Assembly (NCBI GenBank): GCA_039105265.1
Contig: JAPFFF010000004.1
Span: forward strand, 806,001-870,000
Source of the DNA: Tritrichomonas musculus
Taxonomy: Eukaryota > Parabasalia > Tritrichomonadida > Tritrichomonadidae
DNA length: 64,000 nt
Direction of reading: 5' to 3'
The notes beneath the pieces were generated by a model. It did not search any database and had not been told where the DNA came from. It was given only the letters and a program-made list of their open reading frames with translations. This document shows, one piece after another, positions 23,037 through 49,588 of this stretch. The position numbers and the translations under genes are program-made. Positions within the stretch are counted from its first letter, which is position 1, and every line of letters begins with the position of its first letter.

Positions 23037-26000
23037 ATGAGTCTTACATCCAAAAACCAAGAATGGATCCCTCTCCAAATTAAGGTTTTCACAAGATGGG
23101 TTCAAAGCCACCTCAAAAGTGTACCAGAATGTCAAGTCAATGATATTACAAAAGATTTAAACGATGGCGTTGCTCTCGTCGAACTTGCAATTCTTCTTAC
23201 AGGAAAGCAACCACCTCGTCCATGGGCTAAAAAGCCAAAGTGGAACGTCGAAAAAGTTCAAAACTGTGAATTAGCAATTAACATGTTTACAGCAGACGGA
23301 GTCAAACTTGTTGGTATCTCCGGAAAAGATATCAACGATAACAACGAGAAACTTATCCTGGGTTTAGTTTGGTCTTTGATCTTACACTACCAAATCAGCC
23401 AAGTATTCACAGGAGAAGAAGCAAGCACGAAACCAAAAGGCAAAGATGCATTATTAGAATGGGCTATCGATCGAACGAAAGATTATCCAAACATCAAAGA
23501 TTTCGAACCATACGAACTTTCAATGTGCGCATTATTAGATTCATACGTTCCAGACAAAGTTCATTATTCAGAACTCAATCCAAGCGACAAACAACATAAC
23601 GCTGAAGTTGCCGAAAATGTCATGAAAGAACTCGAAATCCCAGTCTTCCTCGAACCAGAAGATGTTACAAATCAAGAACAAATTGACGAAAAAGCTCTTT
23701 TGACACAACTTTCATCCGCCAAACAAGTCTTGGATCACCTCAAAGAGAAGACAGCAGCACAAGAAGAAGCCGCCAGAAAAGCTGCAGAAGAACGTGCTCG
23801 TGCTCAAGCTAAGGCTGAAGAAGAAGCTCGACTCCGTGCAGAAGAAGAAGCCAAAGCCAGAGCAGAGGCTGAAGCCAAAGCTCGTGCAGAAGCTGAAAAA
23901 CAAAGATTAGCTGATGAATTAGCTCAACAAGAAGCAGCTGCCAGAGCCAAAGCCGAAGAAACCGCAAGACAATTAGCCGAAATCGAGAAAGAACGTGAAG
24001 CAGCAGCTCGTGCTCGTGAAGATGCAAATAATGAAATCGAACGTTTGAAGAGATTATTAGCACAATCAAGAGCAGAAACTCAACAAGAAAAGCAAGCCAA
24101 AGAACAAGCCGCAGCCGAAGCAGCTCAAGAAAAAGATGGAAGATTAAGAGCCGAAGCCGAAGCCGACCGTTTAACCAAATTGTTAGCAGAAGCAGAAGCT
24201 AAAGCCAAGGCAGAAGCCGCCGCAAAAGCAGAAGCACAAGCAGCTGCAGATCGTGAAGCCACAGCCAGACAAGAAGCCGAAGAAGCAGCAGCACGTGAAG
24301 CCGCAGCACACAAGAAGGCCGAAGAAGAAGCTGCTAAAGAAGCTAAAGCTCGTGAAGAAGCCACCAAAGCCCAAGCTGAAGAAGAAAAGAAACGCCTTGA
24401 AGAATTAGCAGCAGCAGCCAAAGCAGCCAAAGAAAGGGCAGAAGCAGAAGCAGCATCACAAAAGAGAGCCAAGAATGAAGCTGATGCAGCCGCCGCCTCC
24501 GAAAAAGCAGCACGTGAAAAGGCAGAACAAGAAGCACGTGAAGCGAAAGCAGCTAAAGAAAAGGCAGAAAGAGACGCCGAAGCACAAAGAACAGCTCAAC
24601 ACAAATTAGATGGACAAGTCAGACGTCTTTCAAAGTCCTTACTTGACGCTGAAGCCGAAGCTGAAAGATTAGCAAAAGCATTAGATGATGCAAACGCCAA
24701 AGCCAAACAAGAAGCAGAAGCAAGAGCAGTCGCATGCCAAGCAGCAGAACGTGAAGCACAAGCAAGAAAACTCGCAGAAGAAGCCGCCAAACGTGAATCA
24801 GCAGCTCGTCAAAATGCTGAAGAAGCAGCCAAACGTGAAGCCAAAGCTCGTGAAGACGCAGCAAACGCTAAATTACAAGAAGAAAAGACACGCCTTGAAA
24901 AATTGGCAGCTGAAGCCAAGGCAGCAAAGGAAAAGGCTGAAAAAGAAGCCGAAGAACAAAGAAAGGCCAAATTACAAGCCGATAACAATGCAGCCTCTGA
25001 AAAGGCAGCTCATGAAAAGGCAGAACGTGAATTACAAGCCGCTATCGAAGCCAAGAATCGTGCTGAAGCAGAAGCTGAAAGACAAAGACGTGCTAAAGAC
25101 CAGGCTGATGCCATTGCTGAAACAATGAAACTCGCTAAAGAAAAGGCAGAACAAGAAGCAGCCGCCCAAAGAGAAGCCAAAGCCAAAGCAACAGCTCAAG
25201 CAGCTTCATTGAAGCAAGCCAAAGATCGTGCAGAACAAGAAGCAGCCAGATTAGCTAAAGCGTTAGCTGATGCTCAAGCCAAAGCTGAAAAGGAAGCTCA
25301 ATTGAAGGCAGCAGCTCAAGCAGCAGCACAAAGAGAAGCAGATGCAAGAAAAGCTGTTGAAGAAGCATCCAGAAAAGAAGCTTATGCACGTGCAGCAGCT
25401 GAAGAAGCAGCTCGTCGTGAAGCCAAAGCACGTGAAGATGCAGTTAAATCATCCCTCAAAGACGAAAAAGAACGTTTAGAAAGAGAAGCAGCAGCAGCCA
25501 AAGCAGCCAAAGAAGAAGCAGAGAAATCAGCCGAAAGACAAAGAAGACTCAAGGCACAAGCTGATGCTACAGCAAGACAAGAAAGATTAGCACGTGAAAA
25601 GGCCGAACAAGAAGCAGCAATTGCCAAAGCAGCTAAAGAAAAGGCAGAAGCTGAAGCAGAAAGACAAAGAAGACTTAAGGCACAATCTGACGCAGCAGCA
25701 GCAATGGAACGTGCATCTCGTGAAAAGGCCGAACAAGAAGCAAGAAGATTACAAGAAGCATTAGCTGATGCTAACGCAAAGGCTAAGACAGAAGCTGAAG
25801 CACGTGCAGCAGCCCAATCAGCAGCAGCTCGTGAACAACTTGCTCGTAAAGAAGCTGAAGAAGCTACAGCTCGCGAAGCTCAAGCTCGTAAGAATGCTGA
25901 AGAGGCAGCTAAACGTGAAGCCAAAGCACGTGAAGATGCAGCTAAAGCACAAGCTCAAGCAGACAAAGATCGCCTTGAACAAGAAGCAGCAGCAGCCCAA

Positions 26001-29000: not shown

Positions 29001-32000
29001 TTAGAAGAAGCAGAAGCCAAAGCTAAAGCAGAAGCAGAGGCTCGTGCACAAGCACAAGAAGCAGCCAAACGTGAAGCCGAAGCACGCGCACAAGCTGAAG
29101 CAGCAGCTCAACAAGAAGCACAAGCACGCGCACAGGCATTAGCTGCAGCACGTAGAGAAGCAGAAGCTCGTGAAAAGGCAGCAGAAGCACAAGCACAAGC
29201 CGAAAAAGATCGCTTGACAAAGGAAGCCGAAGAAGCCAGAGCAGCCAAAGATAAGGCCGAAGCTGAAGCCAACGCTCAAAGACAAGCCAAACAACAAGCC
29301 GATGAATTTGCAGCCTCATTGAAGGATGCCAAAGAAAAGGCAGAAGCAGAAGCTTCATCTGCAAGAATTGCCAAAGAAAAGGCCGAACAAGAAGCAGCAG
29401 CACAACGTAATGCTAAAGCACAAGCTGATGACGAATTGGAAAGATTAAGAAGAGCTAAAGAAGCAGCCGAACTAGATGCAGCACATGAAAGAGAAATCAA
29501 AGTTAAGGCAACAGCCAAAGCCGAATCATTACGTAAAGAAAGAGACCTTGCTACACAAGAGGCAGAGAAATTACAAAGATTGTTGGCAGATGCTCAAGCT
29601 AAAGCCCAACAAGAAGAGAATCTTAAGAACTTGGCACAAGCTGCAGCTAACAGAGAAATTGAAGCAAGATTAGCCGCACAAAATGCAGCCGAACAAGAAG
29701 TTCGTTCAAGAGCAGCAGCTGAAGCTGAAGCACGTCGTGAAGCATCCGCAAAAGAATCAGCAGCAAGAGCAGCAGCCAAAGAAGAAAAGGAAAGATTTGA
29801 GAAATTGGCAGCCGAAGCTAAAGCAGCCAAAGAACAAGCCGAAGCATCCGCAAATGCTGAGAAACAAGCCAAAGCAGCAGCAGAACTCAGAGTCCAACAA
29901 GAGAAAGAAGCCCGTGAAAAGGCCGAGAAAGAAGCAGCTGAAGCCAAATTGGCTAAAGAAAAGGCTGAAAAAGATGCCGAAAATCAAAGAAGAGCCAAAT
30001 CACAAGCCGAAGCAGCCATCGAAATGGAACGTGCAGCTCGTGAAAAGACAGAAGCTGAAACACTTCGTTTACAAAAGGCATTAGAAGAAGCTGAAGAGAA
30101 AGCACGTCGTGAAGCCCAAGCTAAACAAGCAGCAGAAGATGCAGCCAAACGTGAACAAGAGGCTCGTGCAGGTGCTGAAGCAGCAACAAAGAAAGAACAA
30201 GAAGCTCGCGTTAGAGCTGAAAAGGCTGCACAACGTGAGAAGCAATTAATCGAAGAACAAGCTAAGACAGCAATCCAAGCTGAAAAGGATCGTTTAGGCA
30301 AAGAAGCAGCAGCAGCCAAAGCAGCCAAAGAGAAGGCAGAACGTGATGCTGAGAACCAAAAGAGAGCAAAGGCACAAGCTGAAGAAGCCGCACAAGCACT
30401 CAAAGAAGCCAAAGAGAAGGCAGAAAGAGACGCCGAAGAACTCAGAAAACTCAAAGAAAAGGCCGAAGCAGATGCAAACTTACAAAGAGCAGCCAAACAA
30501 CAAGCTGATGACGAACTTAACAGAATGAGACAAGCTAAAGAACGCGCTGAACAAGAAGCACAAGCACAACGTGAAGGCAAAGCTCACGCCACAGCTAAAG
30601 CAGAATCACTCAGAGTTGCCAAAGACAAAGCCGACGTTGAAATCGAAAGATTGGCCAAATTATTGGAAGAAGCACAAGCTAAAGCAGCCAAGGAAGCCAA
30701 TGCCAAAGCACTCGCACAAGCAGCAGCAGAACGTGAAATCCAGGCAAGAAAACAAGCCGAAGAAGCAGCCCAGAGAGAAGCTGCAGCTCGTGCTGAAGCA
30801 GAAGAAGCAGCAAAGAGAGAAATCAAAGCTAAGGCAGATGCCGCTAACGCTCAAGCACAAGCAGAAAAGGATCGTCTTCAAAAATTGGCAGACGAAGCAG
30901 CAGCAGCAAGAAAGAAGGCCGAAGCTGACGCAGAAGCACAAAAGAGAGCAAAGGCAGCTGCCGATGCAAGCGCCGCTGCAGAGAGAGCAGCTCGTGAAAA
31001 GGCAGAAGCCGAAGCAGCATCAGCCAAAGCAGCCAAAGAAAAGGCAGAAATTGAAGCAGAACGTCAAAGACAAGCTAAAGCTCAAGCCAAACAAGAAACA
31101 GCAGCTGAACATGAATCAAGACAAAAGGCACAATTAGAAGCAGAAAGATTAGCACGTGCATTAGCCGATGCATCTGCTAAAGCACAACAAGAAGCAGCAG
31201 CAAGAGCACAAGCACAAGAAGCAACTCTTAAAGAAGCTCGTGCAAGACAAGAAGCTGAAGCAGCTGCTCAACGTGAAGCTAGCGCAAGAGTTGAAGCAGA
31301 ACGTGCCGCTAAACAACTCATCGAATCACGCGAAATCGCAGCCAAAGCACAAGAACAAGCTGAGAAAGAGAGATTAGCTAAAGAAGCAGAAGCAGCAAGA
31401 ATCGCCAAAGAAAAGGCAGACGCAGATGCATTAGCAACTAAGAAGGCAAAGGATGAAGCTGATGCAACAGCAGCAGCACTTAAAGCTGCCCGTGATCGTG
31501 CCGAAGCCGAAGCTCAAGCAGCAAGAGCAGCCAAAGAAAAGGCTGAAGCAGAAGCTGAATTAATGAGAAGAGCCAAAGAACAAGCTGATGCTGCAGTGAA
31601 GGCTGAAAGAGAAGCTAGACTTCGTGCTGAAGCTGAAGCAGAACGTCTTAAGAAATATAAACATGAAGCTTCAGCAGCTCAAGAAGCTTTAAAGATCGCT
31701 CAAGAAAAGGCAGAAAAGAGATACAGAGAAATCGTGACTGAAAGAGATGTTGCCATTTCGAAATCAACCGATGTTGAACGTTACTCTAAAGAATTATCAG
31801 AACAACGTGAAAGATATCAAGAACTTCTTAGACAAATCAGCAGCAAAGACAATGAAACTGATGCAGAGAAGCAAGCTAGACTAAGGGCAGAAGCAGAAAT
31901 CCAAAGATTATCTAAAGAATTGGCAGATGCTGAAGCAAGAATGCGTAGACAAGGACATCCAATGGACGGTGACCATGCACAATACGGCGATAAGCCATTC

Positions 32001-32438
32001 GGATTGACAATTACTCTTCGTCTTTCCCCAGATGGCCCAACAGAAACATACGCTCTTACTCTTATTGATTATCAGAACTTTTTGAACTCAGCTGGTAAGA
32101 AACTTGACCTTCAGAAGGCTGACGTACAAAATAACGCATACCAACAATTCCACTTCGGTAAAGGTGATTTGAATACAGTAATTAACACAGTTACTCATCA
32201 AGAATTGGTTTGGGATGTAGCCGATATGTATAATATGAACCCACCAGAGGGAACCCCATTCTATGTCTTCCCATTCCACGGACGCCACAACCAACACTTC
32301 CTTTACAAGGATAACATGATCTATGCTAGACAAAACGGACAAGTTGTTACATACGTCGGAGGAGATGTTCCTTTAGTTATGATGTTCCCAAGCGAAGAAC
32401 TTAAAGAAAGACAGACATTCAACATTAATCCTCTATAA
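23037..32438 (+). CDS. giant CH-domain coiled-coil cytoskeletal protein 1 (360-residue superrepeats)
   Basis: 3,133 residues in one frame. Residues ~10-120 and ~133-230 are two calponin-homology domains: Leu-Asn-Asp-Gly-Val-Ala-Leu in CH1, Lys-Asp-Ala-Leu-Leu-Glu-Trp in CH2, and an alpha-actinin-like Asp-Glu-Lys-Ala-Leu end. Together they form an actin-binding module like those of alpha-actinin and cortexillin. Residues ~240-2965 are Ala/Glu/Lys/Arg/Gln-rich helix. A signature around Lys-Ala-Thr-Ala-Lys-Ala-Glu-Ser-Leu-Arg recurs with its Thr (Thr or equivalent) at 719, 1079, 1439, 1799, 2159 and 2519, exactly 360 residues apart. Each unit has two related sub-blocks 166 and 194 apart. Residues 2973-3133 form a compact, beta-rich domain with Trp-Asp-Val and His-Gly-Arg-His-Asn-Gln-His-Phe, faintly ricin-trefoil-like. 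G+C is well above the flanks, with biased codons suggesting high expression. A crosslinking or striated-fibre role is inferred. Confidence 0.9.
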   Translation: MSLTSKNQEWIPLQIKVFTRWVQSHLKSVPECQVNDITKDLNDGVALVELAILLTGKQPPRPWAKKPKWNVEKVQNCELAINMFTADGVKLVGISGKDINDNNEKLILGLVWSLILHYQISQVFTGEEASTKPKGKDALLEWAIDRTKDYPNIKDFEPYELSMCALLDSYVPDKVHYSELNPSDKQHNAEVAENVMKELEIPVFLEPEDVTNQEQIDEKALLTQLSSAKQVLDHLKEKTAAQEEAARKAAEERARAQAKAEEEARLRAEEEAKARAEAEAKARAEAEKQRLADELAQQEAAARAKAEETARQLAEIEKEREAAARAREDANNEIERLKRLLAQSRAETQQEKQAKEQAAAEAAQEKDGRLRAEAEADRLTKLLAEAEAKAKAEAAAKAEAQAAADREATARQEAEEAAAREAAAHKKAEEEAAKEAKAREEATKAQAEEEKKRLEELAAAAKAAKERAEAEAASQKRAKNEADAAAASEKAAREKAEQEAREAKAAKEKAERDAEAQRTAQHKLDGQVRRLSKSLLDAEAEAERLAKALDDANAKAKQEAEARAVACQAAEREAQARKLAEEAAKRESAARQNAEEAAKREAKAREDAANAKLQEEKTRLEKLAAEAKAAKEKAEKEAEEQRKAKLQADNNAASEKAAHEKAERELQAAIEAKNRAEAEAERQRRAKDQADAIAETMKLAKEKAEQEAAAQREAKAKATAQAASLKQAKDRAEQEAARLAKALADAQAKAEKEAQLKAAAQAAAQREADARKAVEEASRKEAYARAAAEEAARREAKAREDAVKSSLKDEKERLEREAAAAKAAKEEAEKSAERQRRLKAQADATARQERLAREKAEQEAAIAKAAKEKAEAEAERQRRLKAQSDAAAAMERASREKAEQEARRLQEALADANAKAKTEAEARAAAQSAAAREQLARKEAEEATAREAQARKNAEEAAKREAKAREDAAKAQAQADKDRLEQEAAAAQAAKEKAEKDAANARAAKEQADKNAAAEREAREKAEQDAASAKTAKEQAEQEASIQRKAKAKADLELSNMREAKERAEQEAAAQREGKAKATAKAESLRQAKDKADFEIERLGRLLAEAQAKAEKEAQLKAAAQAAAEREIHAREDSEVAAKKEAAARAEAEEAAKKEREARDQAAKAALQEEKERLMKEAQEAKTAKEYAENEAERQRIAKAHADANVAAMKAAKEKAEAQAQAAQAAKERAEQEAERQRRAKSQAEAETQQERQARENAEQEADRLQKALKEAEDRANNEAKARALAQQAAEKEVKARAEAEAASQREARARISARELAQREIVALEQAANTKLKEEKERLEAIAAASRAAKEKAEAEAAAQRKAKAEADAAAQNEKAAREKAEQDAAEAKAAKDKAENEANNQRRAKQQADDELERLRAAKEKAEEDAARERDAKAKATAKAESLRQAKQQADQEIERLKRALDDAQSKAEKEAQAKSAALAAGQRERMAREAAEEAQKREAAARLEEQEQAKREADARAKAAQAAIKEEKERYEKLAQQAADAKQRAQADIEAQKRARAAADARAVSEKDAKEKAEKEAADAQAAKEKAEADAERQRQAKAQADAAAQMEREARERAEQEAARLAQALKEAEEKARREAEARHNAEEAARKEEAARKAAEEATKKEADARKRAAEAAKREKQLIEEQAKAAIQAEKDRLGAEAAAAKAAKEKAQRDAENQRRAKELAEKQAEAEKEARAKAEQESQAAKAAKDQAEIEARQQRQAKAQADDELARVREAKERAEQDAAAQREGKAQATAKAESLRLAKDKADIEIERLGRALAEAQAKAEKEERLKQAAQAAAEREIQAREAAEEAAKREHAARDAAGEAAKREIKAREDAARAALQEERDRLNRLAEVARQERDQAEKEAEAQRRAKAQADNKANTERSLRERAEAEAAAAKAAKEKAEIEIERQRKSKEQAEAETQQERQAREQAEAEAQRLAKLLEEAEAKAKAEAEARAQAQEAAKREAEARAQAEAAAQQEAQARAQALAAARREAEAREKAAEAQAQAEKDRLTKEAEEARAAKDKAEAEANAQRQAKQQADEFAASLKDAKEKAEAEASSARIAKEKAEQEAAAQRNAKAQADDELERLRRAKEAAELDAAHEREIKVKATAKAESLRKERDLATQEAEKLQRLLADAQAKAQQEENLKNLAQAAANREIEARLAAQNAAEQEVRSRAAAEAEARREASAKESAARAAAKEEKERFEKLAAEAKAAKEQAEASANAEKQAKAAAELRVQQEKEAREKAEKEAAEAKLAKEKAEKDAENQRRAKSQAEAAIEMERAAREKTEAETLRLQKALEEAEEKARREAQAKQAAEDAAKREQEARAGAEAATKKEQEARVRAEKAAQREKQLIEEQAKTAIQAEKDRLGKEAAAAKAAKEKAERDAENQKRAKAQAEEAAQALKEAKEKAERDAEELRKLKEKAEADANLQRAAKQQADDELNRMRQAKERAEQEAQAQREGKAHATAKAESLRVAKDKADVEIERLAKLLEEAQAKAAKEANAKALAQAAAEREIQARKQAEEAAQREAAARAEAEEAAKREIKAKADAANAQAQAEKDRLQKLADEAAAARKKAEADAEAQKRAKAAADASAAAERAAREKAEAEAASAKAAKEKAEIEAERQRQAKAQAKQETAAEHESRQKAQLEAERLARALADASAKAQQEAAARAQAQEATLKEARARQEAEAAAQREASARVEAERAAKQLIESREIAAKAQEQAEKERLAKEAEAARIAKEKADADALATKKAKDEADATAAALKAARDRAEAEAQAARAAKEKAEAEAELMRRAKEQADAAVKAEREARLRAEAEAERLKKYKHEASAAQEALKIAQEKAEKRYREIVTERDVAISKSTDVERYSKELSEQRERYQELLRQISSKDNETDAEKQARLRAEAEIQRLSKELADAEARMRRQGHPMDGDHAQYGDKPFGLTITLRLSPDGPTETYALTLIDYQNFLNSAGKKLDLQKADVQNNAYQQFHFGKGDLNTVINTVTHQELVWDVADMYNMNPPEGTPFYVFPFHGRHNQHFLYKDNMIYARQNGQVVTYVGGDVPLVMMFPSEELKERQTFNINPL

Positions 32439-32563
32439 GATAATTATTGAAAATTAGAAGTGAAAACAAAAGCCTTTTAAAAATCATTGAATTTTAAAAT
32501 ACCTCCTATGTAAAAACCATTTTTTTAAATTCTTAATTCTAATATTTTTATATTTTTTTTTTT
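32439..32563. other. short 3' spacer of giant gene 1
   Basis: AT-rich downstream sequence ending in a T-run just before the transposon target duplication. Unlike the upstream side, it shows no clear similarity to the region after the second giant gene. Confidence 0.4.
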
Positions 32564-34880: not shown

Positions 34881-35459
34881 ATGTGTGCAGAAATTAAAGT
34901 AAGAGTGCAATGGTCTCGTGGTGCAATTCTACCAGTTTTGACAAAAGGATCAGCTAAAACCTCAGAACTAACAAGATTACTCAGATTTGCTTGTTCTCCA
35001 AACGATGAAGTAGTATTATTACATAATGGCGTCCCATTGAATCCAGATTTATCTCTAGAAAGCCAATTAGTTAAAGAAAATGATATACTTGAAGCTTTTA
35101 TTACACGGAAGTCCTCAAATAATTCAGATGAATTGGATTCCAAAATACATTCAATAGTTTTTGAAGCAGCTAGAGTTTCAGATAGGCATTATGATGCAAT
35201 AGAAAAAGAGTCTTACAGAGTAGAACCTACAAAAAAGTCTTCATCAGATGATGACTACATGGATCTTTTCGATTTTGACAACAAAGAAGATAAAAAGAAA
35301 AAGCTCTCAATATCCTCAGAGCCTTTACCTACATTTTGGGTAAAGCCTAATCCAGAACCACCTGATTTACTTAATACATATGTTCCTACAAAAGTAAACT
35401 CAATTGAAGAAGCAGGCCAGTTTCTTGAAAAGCAAGGATGGTCATCATGGATGTGGTAA
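34881..35459 (+). CDS. ubiquitin-like-fold N-terminal protein, 192 aa, function unknown
   Basis: Residues ~5-75 pattern like a ubiquitin-like beta-grasp: a strand with Ile-Lys-Val-Arg-Val-Gln-Trp, a helix region with Glu-Leu-Thr-Arg-Leu-Leu-Arg-Phe, then Val-Val-Leu-Leu-His-Asn-Gly-Val-Pro-Leu, Ser-Leu-Glu-Ser-Gln-Leu and Asn-Asp-Ile-Leu-Glu-Ala-Phe. These resemble the 'yNGk.L....sL...gi..gd.i' core of ubiquitin-like domains. There is no C-terminal Gly-Gly, so it is not a conjugated modifier. Residues ~80-145 are charged, Ser/Asp/Lys-rich linker. The C-terminus (145-192) is Pro-rich, then Gln-Phe-Leu-Glu-Lys-Gln-Gly-Trp-Ser-Ser-Trp-Met-Trp, a likely short binding motif. It stands alone between AT-rich spacers. 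The fold is inferred from pattern only. Confidence 0.6.
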   Translation: MCAEIKVRVQWSRGAILPVLTKGSAKTSELTRLLRFACSPNDEVVLLHNGVPLNPDLSLESQLVKENDILEAFITRKSSNNSDELDSKIHSIVFEAARVSDRHYDAIEKESYRVEPTKKSSSDDDYMDLFDFDNKEDKKKKLSISSEPLPTFWVKPNPEPPDLLNTYVPTKVNSIEEAGQFLEKQGWSSWMW

Positions 35460-37855: not shown

Positions 37856-39755
37856 TATTATCAAACTGAGCAACTTTTTGTGAATGCTTTCAAAATCCAA
37901 AAATTAAGAAAAACATTCACAAATTGTAAAATCATGATATTTATAAAGGATCGTCCCTCTTGACATATCAAAACTCTGATTTATTAAATTTCCTTTTCAA
38001 AACTGTTTAAAAGAATAATAAATAAATTTTGTGATTAGTTAGTAGAATTGATGTTGAAAAAAAAAAAAAAAAAATAAAACAGTGCAGTTATAGTGTTAAA
38101 AAGTGTTGGTGTTACATATTTATTATATACATAGTTTTTTTTTATATTAATAATAATACAATGACTTGTCATAAAACTACATCAATACAACATTTTTATA
38201 ATTCTAATGAATATTAGGTCGAAAATTTTATATAATAAATATATTTTTATATGGTACAATTTCAATTTTATGATGACAAGTAAGATTATCTCTAAAATAT
38301 AATGCCTTCTATGATAAAACTATCATTAATCCAATGAATTTATAAAAACTCTTTATAAAAACTCTAATTGATGTAATAAATATATAGATAATAATGTAAG
38401 TTTCGAAACATAATTGATAGATCAAATATTTTCCATTCCATGACAAAATCATGAAGTATGTATATGCTTTGCTATAATATAAAGTATTCTATTTTTAGAG
38501 ATATATTAATTTGCTTGCCTTGGTATAATTTTCAGCGGCACGTTTAAATTTTCAATCATTATTTACATAATGATTGAAAAAATTAAACGATTTTTTTTAT
38601 AATAAAAAATCATTTATTTAAGCAAATAAAGTTAAAATAAATAAAGTTACATATCAATTTAAATAGAGTAAAAAATTGTGAGAATCTCTTTTTGTAAAAT
38701 ATAACAAAAAGTGGATCTAAAAAATTTGAATAAAAATTATATAAATACTTTTTATCTTTATATATATAATGTAAAATAATTTTGTTAAGCTTTACTCTTT
38801 ATTATTATTATTTTTAATATTTATTTAATCATATTTATAGATTAATATGACATTAATATTTGATATACAAAACATTTTTAGTATGATTTGACATTAATAA
38901 AAAAACTTTAATATTTCAGAAAATAAAAGAATAGATCATAAAATAATTCATATTAAAAACGCTTATTATCGAATATTTTTGGATTTTATTTTTATTAATG
39001 TTATATTTATAATTTCCAATATATCAAATCTTAAAAGATTGCCTTTTTTATTTTTTGGTTTTTCAATATTAAAGTATAAGAGTTATCTTTAGATAAAAAA
39101 GCACTTAATCCATTAAATATTAATTAAATGTTCTTATCCACGTTGAAAAAAACAAAGATTTAAGATTTTTCACTTTTTGATATATGGTCAGATTAAAATA
39201 AAATCAATTTTTTGGATATATCTTATTAAAAATATTTTTTTAAACTAAAAAAATATAAATAAAGCAAATAAAAATAAAGAAAAACTATATTTTTTTATTA
39301 AGTTTAAAACATAACAAATGTATTTAGTGCGATTCCATATTATAAAATATTCTCAATTTTATAATTTATCTCCTTTTATTGAATTGGAGGAAATATTTTT
39401 TTATGGTCTAATACTTTCATCAAAAAATGATTTTTAGCATTATATTTAATTAATTAATATTATAATAATCTTTTAATAATATATATCATATTATAAAATC
39501 TTTTACAAACTAATTTATTAAGATATATGTGTTTTTTATATTTTTAAATTGAAAAAATCAATCTCATAATTATGATGTAAAACGATGGTGTATAAGAACA
39601 AGCAACCATATTCTTTTATTTTTTATTTAAATCTAGATCAGATTTTGATGTAGATAGCATTCATATTGTTTCTTCGAAAACATTCAATATGCTAGAATAA
39701 CTGTAAAAGTTCGTTCAAAAGTTGAAGGTATTTCTGCTATTAAATAATTTATTTT
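37856..39755. other. AT-rich divergent intergenic region, 1.9 kb
   Basis: It lies upstream of both flanking genes. It contains a long hairpin (listed), one AGCGGCA near 38534, and at about 39644-39675 an additional TTTTGATGT...TTCATAT copy resembling the core promoter block of the giant genes. No coding frame is seen. Confidence 0.45.
38541..38589. repeat. 22-bp-arm hairpin
   Basis: Arms at 38541-38562 and 38567-38589 are inverted copies apart from one mismatch or bulge in an A/T tract, leaving a loop of only four bases. It begins CGTTTAA and ends TTAAACG, directly after an AGCGGCA motif. It may be a miniature transposon remnant or a structured transcript element. Confidence 0.65.
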
Positions 39756-40061: not shown

Positions 40062-40098
40062 TTTTGATGTGAGATGATTTCATATCATTTTTTTGTTC
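40062..40098 (+). promoter_or_regulatory. core promoter block with initiator, giant gene 2
   Basis: The paralogous 37-bp block to 22987-23023, containing TCATTTTTT with A(+1) at 40087, 40 bases before the ATG. Sequence between this block and the ATG differs from giant gene 1, so the block is conserved beyond simple proximity to the coding sequence. Confidence 0.6.
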
Positions 40099-40126
40099 TA
40101 TAACTAATTCTGTAGAATTATCCAAA

Positions 40127-43100
40127 ATGAGTCTACCACAAACAAACCAAGAATGGATCCCTCTCCAAATTAAGGTTTTCACAAGATGGGTTCAAAGCCA
40201 CCTCAAAAGTGTACCAGAATGTCAAGTTAACGATATAACCAAAGATTTGAACGATGGCGTTGCTCTTGTCGAACTTGCAATTCTTCTTACAGGAAAGCAA
40301 CCTCCTCGTGCATGGGCCAAAAAGCCCAAATGGAATGTCGAAAAAGTTCAAAACTGTGAATTAGCAATTGACATGTTTACAGCAGACGGAGTCAAACTTG
40401 TTGGTATCTCCGGAAAAGATATCAACGATAACAACGAGAAACTTATCCTGGGTTTAGTTTGGTCTTTGATCTTACACTACCAAATCAGCCAAGCATTCAC
40501 AGGAGAAGAAGCAAGCACGAAACCAAAAGGCAAAGATGCATTATTAGAATGGGCTATCGATCGAACGAAAGATTATCCAAACATCAAAGATTTCGAACCA
40601 TACGAACTTTCAATGTGCGCATTATTAGATTCATACGTTCCAGACAAAGTTCATTATTCAGAACTCAATCCAAGCGACAAACAACATAACGCTGAAGTTG
40701 CCGAAAATGTCATGAAAGAACTCGAAATCCCAGTCTTCCTCGAACCAGAAGATGTTACCGACCAAGAACATGTTGACGAAAAAGCTCTTTTGACACAACT
40801 TTCATCCGCCAAACAAGTCTTAGATCATCTTCCAGAAAAGACAGCCGAAGAAGAAGCCAGAGCACGCGCAGAAGCCGAAGCCAGAGCTAAGGCAGAAGCA
40901 GAAGCAAGAGCTCGTGAAGAAGAAGCCAGAAGAAAAGCTGAAGAAGAAGCTCGCCGAAGAGAAGAAGAAGAAGCAAGAGCCAGAGCCGAAGCTGAAGCAC
41001 GTGCAAGAGCAGAAGCAGAAGCAAGAGCACGTGAAGAAGCAGAAAGACAAAGATTAGCTCAACAATTAGCTGATTCAAGAGCCGCCGCCGATGCTAAAGC
41101 AGCAGCAGATGCCAAAGCTTTAGAAGATGCAGCACGTCAACGTGATTCTGAATCAAAAGAACAACAAGATGCCAATGCCGAAATCGAACGTTTGAAGAGA
41201 TTATTAGCCCAATCACGTGCTGAAACCGCTCAAGAAAAGGAAGCAAGAACACGAGCCGAACAAGAATCCCAACATCAAAAAGATGGAAGGCTTAGAGCCG
41301 AAGCCGAAGCTGATCGTTTAGCCAAATTATTAGCTGAAGCTGAAAAGAAAGCACAAGCTGAAGCAGCCGCTCGTCAAGCCGCCCAAGAAGCTGCAGACAG
41401 AGAAGCAGCCGCCCGTAGAGCAGCAGAAGAAGCAGCCGCCAAACAAGCTCAAGCAATTAAGGAAGCTGAGGAAGCAGCAGCTCGTGAGGCCAAAGCACGT
41501 GAAGATGCCGCCAAAGCTCAAGCCGAAGAAGAGAAGAAACGCCTTCAAGCATTAGCTGAACAAGCTCGCCTTGAAAAAGAAAAAGCAGAAGCAGAAGCAG
41601 CCAAGCAAAGGGATGCAAAGACACAAGCTGATGCCAATGCAGCAGCTGAAAGAGCAGCCCGTGAAAGAGCCGAGCAAGATGCCGCAGCAGCCAAATCAGA
41701 ACGTGAAAAGGCAGAAATGGAAGCAAGCGCACAAAGAACAGCCAAAGACAAACTCCACAACGAAGTCAGACGTCTTTCAAAGACATTAGAAGACGCTGAA
41801 GCAGAAGCTCAACGTTTACAAGCAGCATTAGCTGAAGCTGAAGCCAAGGCCAAAGCAGAAGCAGATGCAAGAGCAGCAGCACAAGAAGCAGCAGATCGCG
41901 AAGCCAGAGCTCATGCTGAAGCAGAAGCAGCAGCCAAACGTGAAGCAGAAGCCAGAGCTCAAGCAGAAGAAGCTGGAAGACGTGAAGTCGAAGCCCGTGA
42001 AAAGGCAGCCATTGAAAAAGTTCAAGCTGAAAAAGAACGTCTTGAAAAATTGGCACAAGATGCAGCAGCCGAGAAACAAAGAGCCGAACAAGAAGCCGAA
42101 GCTCAACGTAGAGCCAAGGATGAAGCAGCAGCCAACGCAAAACGTGAGAAAGAATCGCACATTCAAGCCGAACACGACTTGGCCGAAGCTGTCAAAGCAA
42201 AGAATAAAGCAGAAGCCGAAGCAAACAAACAAAAGCGCGCTAAAGCTCAAGCTGATGCAATTGCTGAAACAATGAAATTAGCTAAAGAAAAGGCCGAACA
42301 AGAAGCAACATTCCAGAAGGAAGCTCAAAGCAAAGCACTCGCGCAAGTCGATTCAATAAAACAAGCTCGTGATCGCGCCGAAGCCGAACGTGAAAGATTA
42401 CAGAGATTATTGGAAGATGCTCAACGCAAAGCTGAAGCAGAAGCAAGAGCTCGCGCTGAAGCCCAAGCAGCAGCACGTCGTGAAGCAGATGCAAGAGCAG
42501 CAGCTGAAGCAGCAGCCAAGAAAGAAGCTTACGCACGTGCAGCAGCTGATGAAGCAGCCAAACGTGAAGCACAAGCTCGTGAAAACGCGTCAAAGGCAGC
42601 AGCAAAGGAAGAGAAAGATCGCTTAGAAAGAGAAGCAGCTGCAGCCAAAGCAGCCAAAGAAAAGGCTGAACAATCCGCCGAACGCTTAAAGCAACTCAAG
42701 GAACAGGCTGAACAAAACGCACTCAATGAAAAGGAAGCCCGTGAAAAGGCCGAACAAGATGCAATTGCTGCCAAAGCCGCCAAAGAAAAGGCAGAACAAG
42801 ATGCAACAGCCCAAAGAAAGGCCAAGTCAGAAGCAGACGCAGCAGTTGCAATGGAACGTGCAGCACGTGAAAAGGCAGAAGCTGAAGCTAAGAAATTGGC
42901 TCAAGCTTTGGCTGAAGCAAATGCAAAAGCACAGAAAGAAGCTGAAGCACGCGCAGCAGCCCAACAAGCAGCCGATCGTGAAGCAGCAGCACGTAAAGCA
43001 GCCGAAGACGCAGCAGCACGTGAAGCTCAAGCTCGTAAAGATGCTGAAGAAGCAGGAAAACGTGAAGTTAAAGCACGCGAAGATGCAGCTAAAGCTCAAG

Positions 43101-46100
43101 CTGAAGAAGAAAAGAGGCGTCTTCAACAATTGGCCGAACAAGCTCGTCGTGAAAAGGAAGAAGCAGAAGCAGAAGCAGCAAGACAAAAGCAAGCTAAGAA
43201 CGATGCTGACGGCAACGCCAAAGCTGAAAAGATTGCACGTGAAAGAGCCGAACAAGATGCAAACAACGCCAAGGCAGCCAAAGAAAAGGCAGAAGCCGAT
43301 GCAGCCCTTCAACGTAAAGCGAAAGCTCGCGCCGATGTCGAATTGAACGCAATGAGAGAAGCCAAAGATCGTGCTGAAAAGGAAGCCATCGCACAACGAG
43401 AAAGCAAAGAAAAAGCTACAGCCAAACTTGACCAATTCAAACTCGCCAAGGACAAGGCTGATGAAGAAATTCAACGTTTAGCAAAGGCTTTGGATGAAGC
43501 ACAAGCCAAGGCTCAAGCTGAAGCAGACGCAAGAGCTAAAGCACAACAAGCAGCACGTCGTGAAAAACTCGCACGCGAAGCATCAGAAAGAGCAGCAGCT
43601 AAAGAAAAGGCAGCCCGTGATGAGGCAGCTTTAGCAGCACGTCGTGAAGAAGAAGCTCGCGCACAAGCATCAAAATCAGCCCTCCAAGAAGAGAAAGACC
43701 GTTTAGAAAAGGAGGCAGCTCAAGCTAAAGCAGCTCGAGAATACGCCGAACAAGAAGCAGAACGTCAAAAGATGGCACAGCAAAACGCCGATGCTCGCGC
43801 AGCAGCAATGAAAGCAGCCAAAGAAAAGGCAGAAGCTGAAGCAGCAGCAGCTCAAGCAGCTAAAGAAAAGGCCGAACAAGATGCAGCTGAACAAAGAAAA
43901 GCCAAGGCTCAAGCCGATACACAAAACCAACAAGAAAAGGAAGCTCGTCAAAAGGCGCAAGAAGAAGCCGAAAGATTGGCCAAAGCTCTAGAAGAAGCCG
44001 AACGTAGAGCACAAAAGGAAGCACAAGCTCGTGCAAACGCACAAGAAGCAGCAGAAAGAGAAGCTCGCGCTCGCCAAGAAGCAGAAGATGCAGCCAAACG
44101 TGAAGCCGAAGCTAGAATCATGGCAGAAGAAGCGTCAAGACGTGAAATTGAAGCACGTAATGCAGCAGCTCAAACCAAAGTCAAAGAAGAGAAAGAACGT
44201 CTCGAAGCAGCAGCTGAAGCAGCCAAAGCAGCCAAAGAAAAGGCAGAAGCTGAAGCAGCTGAACAAAAGAAGGCCAAACATGACGCTGATGCTAAAGCAG
44301 CCAACGAAAAGAAGGCCCACGACGAAGCTGAAAAGGCAGCAGCTGAAGCCAAAGCAGCCAAAGACAAGGCCGAAGCAGAAGCAAACAGACAAAGAATTGC
44401 GAAAGCACAAGCCGATGATGAACTTGCAAGAATGAGAGTTGCTAAAGAACAAGCTGAAGCTGAAGCAGTTGTCCAAAGAAAGGGACGCGAATCAGCTACA
44501 GCCAAAGCTGAACAACTTGAAAGAGAAAGACAAACCGTCATCGCAGAACTTGAAAGATTACGAAGAGCACTTGATGATGCACAAAACAAGGCAGAAAATG
44601 AAGCTAAAGCACGCTCAGCAGCACAGGCAGCTGCCCAACGTGAAGCATTAGCAAGACAAACAGCTGAAAATGCAGCAAAGAGAGAAGAACAAGCAAGACT
44701 TAAAGCAGAAGCTGCTGCACAACGTGAAAAAATCGCTCGTGAAAATGCAGCTAAAGCAGCAATTGCAGCTGAAAAGGAACGTTATGAGAAATTGGCAGCC
44801 CAAGCTGAAGAACAAAGACAAAAGGCAGAAGCTGAAATTGAAGCACAAAAACGTGCCAAAGAAAAGGCAGAATCAAATGCACAAGCACTCAAGGACGCAA
44901 GAGAACAAGCTGAAAGACAAGCTGAAAATGCTAAAGCACTCAAAGATCATGCAGTCGCTGAAGCCGATGCACAAAGAAAAGCTAAAGCACAATCTGACGC
45001 AGCTCGCCAAATGGAACGTGTTTCACGTGAAAAGGCAGAAGATGAAGCTGCCAAATTGGCTCGTGCTCTCAAATTGGCTGAAGAAAGAGCTAGAAAATTA
45101 GAACAAGCTACTCGTAACGCTGAAGAAGCAGCTCGTAAAGAAGCCGAAGCTAGACAAGCAGCTGAAGATGCAGCCAAACGTGAAGCTGATGCAAGAAAGG
45201 AAGCCGAAGATGCCGCTAAACGTGAAGCTCAAGCTATGAAGGATGCAGCAAGTCAACAAGTTAAAGAAAAGAAGGAAGAATTCGAAAGACTCGCAGCTCA
45301 AGCACGCGAAGAGAAAGAACAAGCTGAACGTGAAGTTTTCGCACTCAAACAAGCCAAAGCTGATGCAGAAGCAGCAGTTAAGAATGAAAAGGCAGCCCAT
45401 GACGAAGCCGAAAAGGATGCAGCAGCAGCCAAAGCAGCCAAAGAAAAGGCCGAAGCTGATGCTAGATTACAACGTATTGCTAAAGCACAAGCTGATGATG
45501 AACTCGCAAGAATGAGAGAAGCTAAAGAACGTGCTGAACAAGAAGCAGCAGCTCAACGTGAAGGAAGAGAAAAGGCAGCACAAAAAGCTCAACAATATGA
45601 ACTCCTTAAGACAAAGGCCGATCAAGAAATTGACAGATTAGCTAAGGCATTAGCTGAAGCTCAAGCCAAAGCTGAAGAAGAAGCACGCTTAAGAGCAGCA
45701 GCCCAATTAGCAGCACAACGTGAAATTCGTTCAAGAGAAGCGGCCGAAGAAGCAGCAAAGAGAGAAGCTGCAGCAAGAGCAGCAGCAGAAGCTGCAGCTC
45801 AACGTGAAATCAAAGCACGTGAAAATGCAGCGAAAGCAGCAGCTCAAGAAGAACGTGACAGACTTGAACGTGAAGCAGCTGACGCAGCAGCAGCGAAAGA
45901 AAAGGCAGACCAAGAAGCTGAGAAACAAAGACGTTTGAAGGAAGCTGCCGATAACAATGCAGACAGTGAACGTGCAGCTCGTGAAAGAGCCGAAGCCGAA
46001 GCAGCAGCAGCAAGAGCAGCCAAAGAACAAGCCGAAATCGAAGTCAAACGTCAGACACAAGAGAAATTCAAGGCACAATCCGAAACAGAAGCAGAACGTA

Positions 46101-49100
46101 AAGCTCGTGAACACGCTGAACAAGAATCTCAAAGATTAACCAAATTACTCGTTGAAGCAGAAAAGAGAGCACAAAGAGAAGCTCAGTTACGTGCAGAAGC
46201 CCAAGAAGCAGCTCAACGTGAAGCTGAAGCTAGACAAGCAGCCGAATCAGCAGCACAACGTGAAGCAGCAGCAAGAGAAGAAGCAATCGCTGCAGCTAAA
46301 CGTGAAGCTGAAGCACGTGCACAAGCAGCAGCAGCTCAAGCACAATCAGAAAAGGATCGTTTAATGAAATTAGCCGAAGAAGCTCGTGCAGCTAAAGATG
46401 CAGCAGAAGCTGAAGCAAATGCACAAAAACAAGCTAAGATTCAAGCTGAACAATTCGCTAACCAATTACGTGGTGACAAAGAAAAGGCTGAAGCAGAAGC
46501 AACAGCAGCAAGAATTGCTAAAGAAAAGGCAGAATCTGATGCAGCTTACCAGAGAAATGCCAAACTCGCAGCTGATGATGAACTGGAGAGAATGAGAAAG
46601 GCTAAGGAAAGGGCTGAACAAGATGCAGTTTCACAAAGAGAAGGAAGAGAAAGAGCAGCACAAAAGGCAGAAGAATTACAAAAGGAAAGAGATCTCGCTA
46701 AGGCCGAAGCTGAGAAATTACAAGCATTATTACAAGACGCTCTTGATAAAGCAACACAAGAACAGAAATTGAAGATCGAAGCACAAAGAGCAGCTGAAAG
46801 AGAAATCGATGCAAGAATCGAAGCTGAACGTGCAGCAGAGAAAGAGAAACGTGCCAAAGCTGAAGCCGAAGAACAAGCACGTCGTGAAGCTTATGCTCGT
46901 GAATCTGCTATCAAAGCAACAATTGAAGAAGAGAAATTGAAGTTCCAAAGATTGGAAGAAGAAGCAAGATTAGCTAAAGAAAGAGCTGAACATGAAGCCG
47001 AGAAACAAAGACAACTTAAGGAACAAGCTGACAAAGATGCAGATGCTGAGAAAGAGGCAAGAGAACAGGCTGAAAAGGATGCAGAAGCAGCTAAAGCAGA
47101 GAAAGAAAAGGCTGAAGCTGAAGCAGAACGTGAACGTCATGCTAAATCACAAGCTGATGCAGCTATCGAAATGGAACGTGCAGCTCGTGAAAAGGCCGAG
47201 AAAGAAGCATCGAGATTAGCACATGCTTTACAATTGGCTGAAGAAAGAGCAAGAAAGGCTGCAGAAGCTAAGAAGGCCGCTGAAGAAGCAGCCAAACGTG
47301 AAGCTGAAGCTCGTGCAGGTGCCGAAGCAGCAGCTCGTAAAGAAGCCGATGCAAGAGCAGCAGCTGAAACAGCAGCTCGTAGAGAAGCACAAGCTTTGAA
47401 GGATGCAGCAAACGCAAAAGTTGAAGCTGAGAAGCAACGCTTACAAAAGATCGCTGAAGAAGCCCGCTTAGAGAAAGAAAGAGCCGAGAAAGAAGCACAA
47501 GCAAACAAGCTTGCTAAAGCACAAGCTGAACAAGATGCACTTACATTGAAGGAAGCCAAAGAGAACGCAGAGAAGGAAGCATCATATGCAAGAGCAGCTA
47601 AAGAAAGGGCTGAAGCAGATGCCAAATATCAAACAAATGCCAAAGCACAAGCTGATGATGAACTTCAAAAGATGAGAGCAGCTAAAGAACGTGCTGAACA
47701 AGAAGCTCAAGCACAACGTGAAGGTAAAGAAAAGGCTACACAAAAAGCACACGAATTAGAATCACTCAAGACAAAGGCTGATGAAGAAATCAACAGATTA
47801 GCCAAAGCTTTAGATGAAGCACGCTCAAAGGCTGAAGCAGAAGCAAGAGCAAAGGCACTCGCACAAGTTGCAGCTGAAAGAGAAATCACAGCAAGACAAA
47901 AGGCTGAATTAGCTGCAAAGAACGAAGCAGAAGCACGCGCTAAAGCTGAAGAAGCAACACGCAGAGCAATCAAAGCCAAACAAGATGCAGCTAACGCACA
48001 AGCCGCAGATGAGAAAGCACGTCTTCAGAAATTAGCTGAAGAAGCAGCAGCGGCTAGATTAAAGGCAGAAGATGAAGCTGAAAGATTACGACATTTGAAG
48101 GAACAAGCTGATGCTAACGCAGCAGCTGAAAGAGCAGCACGTGAAAAGGCAGAAGCTGAAGCAGCAGCAGCCAAAGCAGCCAAACAACAAGCAGAAATGG
48201 AAGCAGAACGTCAAAGACAAGCTAAAGCTCAAGCCAAGGCAGAAACAACAACAGAACGCGCATCAAGAGAAAAGGCTGAATCAGAAGCAGAAAGATTAGC
48301 CAAGGCATTAGCTGATGCCGAAGCCAAAGCACGCAATGAAGCAGCAGCAAGAGCCCGTGCACAAGAAGCAGCCACTAAAGAAGCACGTGCAAGAGAAGCA
48401 GCTGAAGCAGCAGCAGAAAGAGATGCACAAGCCAGAGAAGCAGCTGAAAGAGCAGCAAGAGATGAAGCTGCACAAAGAGAGCAAGCAACTAAAGCTAAGG
48501 AACAAGCTGAAAAGGACAGATTCATCAAAGAAGCAGAAACATCAAGACTTGCCAAAGAAAAGGCTGAAGCTGATGCAGCAGCAGCAAGAAAGGCTAAAGA
48601 AGAGGCTGATGCACTTGCAGCACAACTTAAAGAAGCTCGTGATCGTGCCGAAGCAGAAGCAAATGCAGCCAAATCAGCCAAAGAAAAGGCAGAAGCTGAA
48701 GCAGAACTTCAACGAAGAGCCAAACAAGAAGCAGACTTATTAGTCCAACGTGAAAGAGAAGCTCGTATCCGTGCTGAACAAAAGGCAGAACGTCGTAGGA
48801 AGTATCAACATGAAGCAGAAGCAGCTGCAGAAGCATTGCGTATCGCCAAAGAAAAGGCTGAACAAAGACTCGTTGAAATCACAAGTGAAAGAGACGTCGC
48901 TGTTCAGAAATCAACACAAGTTGAGAAGATATCACAAGAATTAATCGAAGCACGTAGAAGATTACACGAAATTGAAGTTCAGATCTCAGGCAAGCAACAA
49001 ACATCTGATGCTGAAAAGGAAGCACGTCTTAGGGCAGAAGCCGAAATACAAAGATTATCACAATTATTACAAGAGGAAGAATTAAAGAACCGTAATCTCG

Positions 49101-49588
49101 GACGACCAATGGATGGTGACCACTTCCAATACGGTGATAAACCATTCGGTTTTACTATTACTCTTCGTTTAACCGAAGATGGTCCACTCGAGACATTGGC
49201 TCTTACTCTTATCGATTATCAGAACTTCTTGAATTCTGCAGGTAAGAAACTCGACCTTCAGAAAGAAGACATTACTCATAACGCTTACCAAAGATTCCAC
49301 TTTGGAAAGGGCGAATTAAACACAGTTATCAATACAGAAATTCATGACGAATTAGTTTGGGATGTAGCCGATATGTATAACTTGAACCCACCAGAGGGCA
49401 CCCCATTCTATGTCTTCCCATTCCACGGACGCCACAACCAACACTTCCTTTACAAGGATAACATGATCTATGCTAGACAAAACGGACAAGTTGTTACATA
49501 CGTCGGAGGAGATGTTCCTTTAGTTATGATGTTCCCAAGCGAAGAACTTAAAGAAAGACAGACATTCCACATCCAATTCCCACAATAA
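40127..49588 (+). CDS. giant CH-domain coiled-coil cytoskeletal protein 2 (360-residue superrepeats)
   Basis: 3,153 residues, paralog of the gene at 23037. CH domains are at ~10-120 and ~133-230, followed by a longer Arg/Ala/Glu-rich linker. The periodic coil has equivalent marker residues at 738, 1098, 1458, 1818, 2178 and 2538, again exactly 360 apart. The C-terminal domain is 2992-3153. From the last marker to that domain is 454 residues in both paralogs, so the whole length difference is 19 residues just after CH2 plus one at the C-terminus. At DNA level the CH region and the last ~190 bases are nearly identical to the paralog, while the coil differs at many codons. Codon use is again GC-rich for the region. 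The role is inferred as for the paralog; the pair could form hetero-oligomers or stage-specific versions of one fibre. Confidence 0.9.
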   Translation: MSLPQTNQEWIPLQIKVFTRWVQSHLKSVPECQVNDITKDLNDGVALVELAILLTGKQPPRAWAKKPKWNVEKVQNCELAIDMFTADGVKLVGISGKDINDNNEKLILGLVWSLILHYQISQAFTGEEASTKPKGKDALLEWAIDRTKDYPNIKDFEPYELSMCALLDSYVPDKVHYSELNPSDKQHNAEVAENVMKELEIPVFLEPEDVTDQEHVDEKALLTQLSSAKQVLDHLPEKTAEEEARARAEAEARAKAEAEARAREEEARRKAEEEARRREEEEARARAEAEARARAEAEARAREEAERQRLAQQLADSRAAADAKAAADAKALEDAARQRDSESKEQQDANAEIERLKRLLAQSRAETAQEKEARTRAEQESQHQKDGRLRAEAEADRLAKLLAEAEKKAQAEAAARQAAQEAADREAAARRAAEEAAAKQAQAIKEAEEAAAREAKAREDAAKAQAEEEKKRLQALAEQARLEKEKAEAEAAKQRDAKTQADANAAAERAARERAEQDAAAAKSEREKAEMEASAQRTAKDKLHNEVRRLSKTLEDAEAEAQRLQAALAEAEAKAKAEADARAAAQEAADREARAHAEAEAAAKREAEARAQAEEAGRREVEAREKAAIEKVQAEKERLEKLAQDAAAEKQRAEQEAEAQRRAKDEAAANAKREKESHIQAEHDLAEAVKAKNKAEAEANKQKRAKAQADAIAETMKLAKEKAEQEATFQKEAQSKALAQVDSIKQARDRAEAERERLQRLLEDAQRKAEAEARARAEAQAAARREADARAAAEAAAKKEAYARAAADEAAKREAQARENASKAAAKEEKDRLEREAAAAKAAKEKAEQSAERLKQLKEQAEQNALNEKEAREKAEQDAIAAKAAKEKAEQDATAQRKAKSEADAAVAMERAAREKAEAEAKKLAQALAEANAKAQKEAEARAAAQQAADREAAARKAAEDAAAREAQARKDAEEAGKREVKAREDAAKAQAEEEKRRLQQLAEQARREKEEAEAEAARQKQAKNDADGNAKAEKIARERAEQDANNAKAAKEKAEADAALQRKAKARADVELNAMREAKDRAEKEAIAQRESKEKATAKLDQFKLAKDKADEEIQRLAKALDEAQAKAQAEADARAKAQQAARREKLAREASERAAAKEKAARDEAALAARREEEARAQASKSALQEEKDRLEKEAAQAKAAREYAEQEAERQKMAQQNADARAAAMKAAKEKAEAEAAAAQAAKEKAEQDAAEQRKAKAQADTQNQQEKEARQKAQEEAERLAKALEEAERRAQKEAQARANAQEAAEREARARQEAEDAAKREAEARIMAEEASRREIEARNAAAQTKVKEEKERLEAAAEAAKAAKEKAEAEAAEQKKAKHDADAKAANEKKAHDEAEKAAAEAKAAKDKAEAEANRQRIAKAQADDELARMRVAKEQAEAEAVVQRKGRESATAKAEQLERERQTVIAELERLRRALDDAQNKAENEAKARSAAQAAAQREALARQTAENAAKREEQARLKAEAAAQREKIARENAAKAAIAAEKERYEKLAAQAEEQRQKAEAEIEAQKRAKEKAESNAQALKDAREQAERQAENAKALKDHAVAEADAQRKAKAQSDAARQMERVSREKAEDEAAKLARALKLAEERARKLEQATRNAEEAARKEAEARQAAEDAAKREADARKEAEDAAKREAQAMKDAASQQVKEKKEEFERLAAQAREEKEQAEREVFALKQAKADAEAAVKNEKAAHDEAEKDAAAAKAAKEKAEADARLQRIAKAQADDELARMREAKERAEQEAAAQREGREKAAQKAQQYELLKTKADQEIDRLAKALAEAQAKAEEEARLRAAAQLAAQREIRSREAAEEAAKREAAARAAAEAAAQREIKARENAAKAAAQEERDRLEREAADAAAAKEKADQEAEKQRRLKEAADNNADSERAARERAEAEAAAARAAKEQAEIEVKRQTQEKFKAQSETEAERKAREHAEQESQRLTKLLVEAEKRAQREAQLRAEAQEAAQREAEARQAAESAAQREAAAREEAIAAAKREAEARAQAAAAQAQSEKDRLMKLAEEARAAKDAAEAEANAQKQAKIQAEQFANQLRGDKEKAEAEATAARIAKEKAESDAAYQRNAKLAADDELERMRKAKERAEQDAVSQREGRERAAQKAEELQKERDLAKAEAEKLQALLQDALDKATQEQKLKIEAQRAAEREIDARIEAERAAEKEKRAKAEAEEQARREAYARESAIKATIEEEKLKFQRLEEEARLAKERAEHEAEKQRQLKEQADKDADAEKEAREQAEKDAEAAKAEKEKAEAEAERERHAKSQADAAIEMERAAREKAEKEASRLAHALQLAEERARKAAEAKKAAEEAAKREAEARAGAEAAARKEADARAAAETAARREAQALKDAANAKVEAEKQRLQKIAEEARLEKERAEKEAQANKLAKAQAEQDALTLKEAKENAEKEASYARAAKERAEADAKYQTNAKAQADDELQKMRAAKERAEQEAQAQREGKEKATQKAHELESLKTKADEEINRLAKALDEARSKAEAEARAKALAQVAAEREITARQKAELAAKNEAEARAKAEEATRRAIKAKQDAANAQAADEKARLQKLAEEAAAARLKAEDEAERLRHLKEQADANAAAERAAREKAEAEAAAAKAAKQQAEMEAERQRQAKAQAKAETTTERASREKAESEAERLAKALADAEAKARNEAAARARAQEAATKEARAREAAEAAAERDAQAREAAERAARDEAAQREQATKAKEQAEKDRFIKEAETSRLAKEKAEADAAAARKAKEEADALAAQLKEARDRAEAEANAAKSAKEKAEAEAELQRRAKQEADLLVQREREARIRAEQKAERRRKYQHEAEAAAEALRIAKEKAEQRLVEITSERDVAVQKSTQVEKISQELIEARRRLHEIEVQISGKQQTSDAEKEARLRAEAEIQRLSQLLQEEELKNRNLGRPMDGDHFQYGDKPFGFTITLRLTEDGPLETLALTLIDYQNFLNSAGKKLDLQKEDITHNAYQRFHFGKGELNTVINTEIHDELVWDVADMYNLNPPEGTPFYVFPFHGRHNQHFLYKDNMIYARQNGQVVTYVGGDVPLVMMFPSEELKERQTFHIQFPQ

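Follow-up and report, generated by a model that had tools for sequence, protein, structure and literature searches.

Cytolinkers of the tandem calponin-homology (CH) type, such as spectrin, alpha-actinin, plectin and dystonin, carry an N-terminal CH1-CH2 pair, a long rod and a C-terminal domain. The rod of myosin II is a long, proline-free coiled coil of fixed length, with alternating charge, a 28-residue period and heptad breaks in the form of single skips; it and tropomyosin are known as length-invariant coiled coils. In titin and nebulin, a repeat of a repeat is set to the repeat of a filament. According to passages of PMC9140763, the titin super-repeat of approximately 43 nm and that of nebulin, equal to one thin-filament repeat, match axial filament repeats, and passages of PMC10665186 likewise describe super-repeats that match filament repeats. 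The striated fibres that give trichomonad cells their shape are built of proteins that are for the most part uncharacterized.

Two neighbouring genes, A and B, were analysed here in a window of 64,000 nucleotides of Tritrichomonas musculus DNA. Their products share the plan of the tandem-CH cytolinkers, but the rod is predicted to be one Ala/Glu/Lys-rich coiled coil made of 360-residue units, and the C-terminal domain is a different one. The likeness to myosin II extends to a long proline-free rod of fixed length, although A and B have a charge component of 13.85 residues, six stutters and the 360-residue unit in place of the 28-residue period and single skips. Their design would work like that of titin and nebulin; those proteins, however, consist of Ig/Fn3 domains and short actin-binding modules, whereas A and B are predicted coiled coils. 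Among the papers listed in searches of the literature outside most subscription journals, none dealt with these proteins.

Architecture of the two proteins

A and B lie 7.7 kb apart on the + strand, with two smaller frames between them (34881-35459 and 36716-37900), and their calculated masses are 344 and 349 kDa, respectively. Their features are as follows.

23037..32438, + strand: gene A, encoding a rod protein of 3133 aa in one uninterrupted frame (open frame 3146 aa)
23037..23756, + strand: A tandem CH (CH1-CH2) domain, residues 1-240, in two Pfam stretches
23757..24110, + strand: A linker of low-complexity Ala/Glu/Arg sequence, 118 aa (residues 241-358); the B linker is 19 aa longer
24111..31670, + strand: A array, seven gapless 360-residue units, residues 359-2878
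24111, 25191, 26271, 27351, 28431, 29511, 30591, + strand: A unit starts
31671..31958, + strand: A post-array rod, residues 2879-2974, 96 aa, equal in length in B
31959..32435, + strand: A conserved C-terminal domain, residues 2975-3133, possibly a ricin-B-like beta-trefoil
40127..49588, + strand: gene B, 3153-aa paralogue of A, uninterrupted frame
40127..40846, + strand: tandem CH domain of B (residues 1-240), 96% aa identity with A
40847..41257, + strand: B linker, residues 241-377, 137 aa
41258..48817, + strand: B array, seven gapless 360-residue units, residues 378-2897
41258, 42338, 43418, 44498, 45578, 46658, 47738, + strand: B unit starts
48818..49105, + strand: B post-array rod, residues 2898-2993, 96 aa
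49106..49585, + strand: C-terminal domain of B (residues 2994-3153), 88% identity with A

The Pfam CH matches of residues 1-240 have E values of 2e-26 (A) and 2.4e-24. Against the PDB, the CH pair of A matched the actin-binding domains of alpha-actinin and spectrin, the best match being alpha-actinin-2 (4.9e-33, residues 9-227). CH was the only domain found in A and B by hmmscan at E <= 0.001; at that threshold there was no EF-hand domain, no spectrin repeat (PF00435), no plakin repeat (PF00681), no filamin Ig-like repeat (PF00630) and no motor head. By predicted domain content, they are tandem-CH proteins and not spectrins, plakins or filamins. Proline is absent from residues 241-2974 of A (2,734 aa) and 241-2993 of B (2,753 aa). 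Short Tritrichomonas 'alpha-actinin' CH proteins (e.g. P0113 and P0132, 443-484 aa) have a CH domain and full-length similarity to a family member, L042, in which a CH pair and a C-terminal domain are combined as in A and B, but they are without the long rod.

The element TCATATCATTTTTTT is present at 23005-23019 and 40080-40094, 32 and 47 bases 5' of the start codons of A and B, respectively, and elements like CATNTCATTTTT are situated 5' of a number of other CH-family genes. These are perhaps a shared initiator-type promoter. Elsewhere in the window, a single frame on the - strand (9925-14151) encodes a subtilase domain together with a C-terminal protein kinase domain.

An exact period of 360 residues

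The earlier note had recorded twelve marker blocks at intervals of 1,080 bp. All were found to be in frame, with a spacing of exactly 360 codons. Its six blocks per gene are present, but the full count of units is seven, another unit being situated 5' of the first marker. The distance from the last marker to the C-terminal domain is equal in the two genes, as it had stated; the distance to 'PMDGDH' is, however, 456 residues rather than 454, a figure that hinges on where the domain is taken to begin.

Results of the autocorrelation analysis were consistent with this period in both proteins. Self-identity at lags of 360, 720, 1080, 1440 and 1800 residues was 55.0, 57.5, 53.2, 52.3 and 49.6% in A and 51.7, 52.6, 47.1, 49.5 and 46.9% in B; lags of 359 and 361 gave 11-12%, and the average across all lags was 18%. 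The next-best lags, 166 and 194, which sum to 360, gave 37-42% identity, rising to at most 43% when multiples of 360 were added. It is apparent that the 360-residue period stands alone: up to lag 1,899, only its own multiples equalled it. A shorter true period was rejected, since only multiples of 360 reach 47-58%, and lags of 166/194, 180 and 14 represent sub-structure. Each unit contains two related stretches 166 and 194 residues apart, giving halves that differ by 28 residues.

All 14 units agree in 62 of the 360 columns, and at least 12 of them share a residue in 127. Alanine shows a parity bias in every unit (634 versus 209 in A, 617 versus 202 in B). An assembly artefact arising from copied units can be set aside, as units of the same gene differ at 37-54% of residues and the two arrays at 36%.

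Searches of the organism's own genome covered 193.4 Mb in 746 contigs. Seventeen matches to the 360-residue unit were found when 113 of 1,276 candidates were scored, so that more copies are possible; 15 of them fall within A and B, which argues against a genome-wide repeat, and the other two, both in one relative (C7), are weak (42-45%). Near-360 lags in relatives (353, 356 and 716) were not accepted as the same period, since they appear to arise by addition of other spacings and extend over only a portion of those rods.

Divergence of A and B without change of length

The arrays of A and B have 64% aa identity and no indel in 2,520 codons, with a dN of 0.295, an NG86 dS of 0.99 and differences at 370 of 768 comparable fourfold sites. 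A global alignment from residue 241 onwards required two gaps, one of 19 residues in the linker and one of a single residue at the C-terminus, and none in the array. These data bear out the suggestion that sequence has drifted while length has remained fixed.

Divergence is uneven along the genes, dS being 0.145 in the CH domain, 0.50 in the C-terminal domain and 0.99 in the array. Codons 101-200 and 3079-3118 of A are nearly 100% identical to B in DNA, as against 69% in the array. From these patches the ends seem to have been homogenized and the array not, which suggests gene conversion of the end domains, sparing the array.

Each unit of A and the unit of B at the same position are mutual best cross-gene matches (seven of seven, 58-70% identity), which indicates that the array is older than the gene duplication. 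Units within one gene are 46-63% identical in amino acids. In unit trees, the A and B units of the same number were sisters in seven of seven cases by DNA and in five of seven by protein, the exceptions being A3, which pairs with A5, and B3, which pairs with B5. Units 1, 3 and 5 were placed apart from units 2, 4 and 6 with moderate support (0.82-0.91), and identity at lag 720 is slightly higher than at lag 360 in both genes. The odd/even split hints at a 720-residue double unit, and the array looks like unit 0 followed by three such double units, formed before A and B separated.

Indels in other members of the family

Eight other pairs of family members were aligned in the same way, and contained 3, 1, 35, 39, 39, 38, 47 and 26 gaps at identities of 83, 100, 93, 93, 91, 92, 85 and 43%, respectively. 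Seven of the pairs thus have 3-47 gaps, and the eighth, identical where aligned, has one. Since other members tolerate indels, it is unusual in this family for the total length to be fixed. Scaled from six of these pairs, the expectation for the A/B array is 11 to 120 gaps, and none was found, although global alignment of repeats yields rough gap counts, and several of the control pairs consist of near-identical short repeats that are far more prone to slippage than the A/B array. The lowest non-trivial rate is that of C12_2819m and C8_1711.

Other giant members have 35/70-residue heptad repeats, or repeats of 21 or 132 residues. CH proteins of 4,000-5,500 aa with 35/70-residue heptad repeats are encoded at G000:C6:2803100-2850000 (L026-L031) and on C221, C15, C4 and C1; their copies differ largely by whole-heptad indels, that is, by changes of length that keep phase. 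In the one sister pair in which such gaps were counted, 33 of 35 were whole heptads, which argues that local coiled-coil phase is by itself insufficient to account for a fixed length.

These comparisons bear on a reading in which there is no ruler at all. Ordinary purifying selection on a coiled coil, together with slip-resistant repeats (approximately 60% identical in DNA) and inertia after a single burst of duplication, would then have kept the arrays equal. Units within a gene are 56-66% identical in DNA, so slippage should be rare; C12_2819m and C8_1711 have only three gaps at 83% identity, and the myosin rod and tropomyosin show that a coiled coil may hold its length. Even at the mildest control rate used, however, the A/B array should have acquired about 11 gaps, phase-harmless heptad indels are frequent in the sister pair but absent from the array, and the linker immediately 5' of the array has taken a 19-aa indel. 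We consider this explanation somewhat unlikely.

Register, charge and dimensions of the rods

The rods of A and B are probably coiled coils, as judged from the periodicity of their residues. When apolarity was averaged over the 14 units, a peak was obtained at harmonic 102 of 360, or 3.529 residues per turn. Within the range of 3.3-3.9 residues per turn, this harmonic is the strongest in A and in B, whether hydropathy or the full set of apolar residues is considered, although over the whole spectrum harmonic 180 (alternate alanines) is stronger and harmonic 78 as strong. When only large apolar residues are counted, the peak of B at 3.396 residues per turn is slightly higher than that at 3.53. 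The conservation spectrum has its maximum at harmonic 104, followed by 102.

When a path of 3- and 4-residue steps was fitted freely, stutter penalties of 1.0, 1.5 and 2.0 all yielded 102 core positions with six stutters, located at unit positions 32, 78, 138, 226, 251 and 304, a pattern that fits the 14 units; penalties of 0.5 and 0 gave 100 and 98 core positions, respectively, and many stutters. The path score was 111.4; the highest value reached among 200 column permutations was 82.3. A unit of 42 heptads and six hendecads (the six stutters) has 360 residues and 102 turns, in agreement with the expectation that stutters are needed because 360 is not a multiple of 7. The core positions are 46% Ala, 11% Leu and 27% charged (E, K, R), and with so many charged residues the core is weak.

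The longest strong charge period, 13.85 residues, is harmonic 26, the third strongest. The unit combines a regular charge component (harmonic 26) and an apolar one (harmonic 102) with six stutters at fixed places. Eight of the 11 most favourable parallel charge staggers among 1,500 were of the form 360n+-7 (353, 367, 713, 727, 1073, 1087, 1433 and 1447), the remainder being 7, 4 and 505. The preference is modest, 0.23-0.26 for these staggers as against 0.23 for 505, and since a stagger of 7 is favourable and the period is 360, they are in part a consequence of the period itself.

A second alternative to a ruler is an obligate, in-register A:B heterodimer, in which an indel in either chain would unzip the rest and no larger lattice would be needed. 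Such a lock would account for the identical array lengths and colinear units of the two genes, which are neighbours on one strand with a common promoter-proximal element, and the g-e' charge balance of A:B is higher in register (54) than in any of the six unit-shifted arrangements (42-50). The in-register values for A:A and B:B are, however, 58 and 54, so a preference for A:B from charge pairs was rejected; as the three values are about equal, both homodimers and heterodimers are possible. The lock also leaves unexplained the equality of units within one gene before A and B separated. On balance, it appears improbable.

If the coiled coil is continuous, the calculated lengths are 53.5 nm for a unit, in keeping with the approximately 53 nm proposed from the period, 374 nm for the array and approximately 406 nm for the rod. 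The actin repeats are 2.75 and approximately 36 nm and the tubulin repeat is 8 nm; 53.5 nm bears no integer relation to these values and was not taken as an actin or tubulin repeat.

A possible axial role for the rods

The explanation that we favour, tentatively and at a little under even chances, is that A and B are paralogous, cytolinker-like rods that pack in axial register every ~53.5 nm. The N-terminal tandem CH domain, which is of the actin-binding type, would bind F-actin; next would come a left-handed coiled coil, ~406 nm long and for the most part continuous, and then a C-terminal domain that would bind a putative partner. Laterally packed rods (A beside A, A beside B, or a combination of the two), aligned in register or offset by an integral number of units, would present equivalent faces every ~53.5 nm, and an offset of as little as one heptad would disrupt the contacts along the remaining rod. 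Packing of this kind would place both the overall axial length and the phase of each unit under selection. The unit length would then be the axial repeat of the assembly, by analogy with myosin rods or the super-repeats of titin and nebulin, and the fixed length would presumably serve as a ruler.

In a more far-reaching version, set out next, the six conserved stutters would tune the apolar stripe to an integral 102 turns per unit. With a helix of 3.60 residues per turn, the superhelix would make exactly two turns per unit, so that every unit would show one face; this is speculative, as 3.62 residues per turn would give 2.55 turns.

That version, which we regard as rather unlikely, is that A and B are a new kind of coiled-coil ruler, in which co-assembling rods of 7 x 360 residues link actin to another structure with a ~53.5-nm repeat; part of that same doubtful reading is an axial repeat of ~107 nm arising from the 720-residue double unit. 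Spacings of 53.5 or 107 nm are definite values for tagging and electron microscopy.

As to where such rods might reside, A and B could be structural components of a fibre banded every 53 nm, either the costa or some other striated root fibre. Costains 1-3 of Tritrichomonas foetus, trichomonad structural proteins that were compared with A and B by description only, are termed likely coiled-coil proteins in passages of the 2026 review PMC13071381, and the 42-60 nm given there for type-B costae includes 53 nm. Those passages, however, assign a type-A costa to T. foetus, with no band spacing for that type, and list main costa proteins of 100-135 kDa, far smaller than A and B at 344-349 kDa. A and B, moreover, carry a tandem CH domain of the actin-binding type. 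The costa is thus a weak candidate site, not favoured by protein size, and we think this assignment very doubtful.

The C-terminal domain and the CH family

The C-terminal domain of approximately 160 residues had 73 matches in the organism's own genome, fragments included. Pfam gave no match in the C-terminal part of either protein, at E values up to 10 for A and up to 1 for B. One of the nine members of alignment A3, which includes A and B, matched Ricin_B_lectin (L004; 6.8e-4, 20.2 bits against a cut-off of 29), two database relatives matched RicinB_lectin_2 below threshold (0.034 and 0.044), and the best PDB profile match was a ricin-B protein with an E value of 0.34. A ricin-B-like beta-trefoil is a lead suggested by these matches and not a result. 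Pattern searches of viral and prokaryote contigs gave 6 and 16 matches, respectively, none of them confirmed as a relative, and none of 83 candidates among database proteins of 1,723-5,483 aa matched the C-terminal region at E <= 0.001. In two metagenome relatives, P0204 and P0205, the domain occurs without CH and is fused to an F5/8 type C (discoidin) domain.

Searches of database proteins in the same size range (1,723-5,483 aa) with the CH region gave 110 rows, in which the named entries were animal proteins, mostly spectrins, and no trichomonad was named. Long CH members of T. musculus are perhaps missing or split in the annotation. A short member had 101 database relatives; those named were from T. 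musculus, with one T. foetus and two Schistosoma proteins, and T. vaginalis was not among them.

In the own genome, the CH query gave at least 165 matches when 150 of 200 candidates were scored, a number in which some genes are counted twice because CH1 and CH2 were matched separately; many lie in frames of 1,700-5,500 aa. In at least 36 cases a C-terminal match lies in the same open frame as a CH match, the two being separated by spacers of 41-3,466 residues. The 0.4-micrometre rods of A and B, set against family spacers of 41 to more than 3,400 residues, offer a natural comparison of length-locked with length-free proteins.
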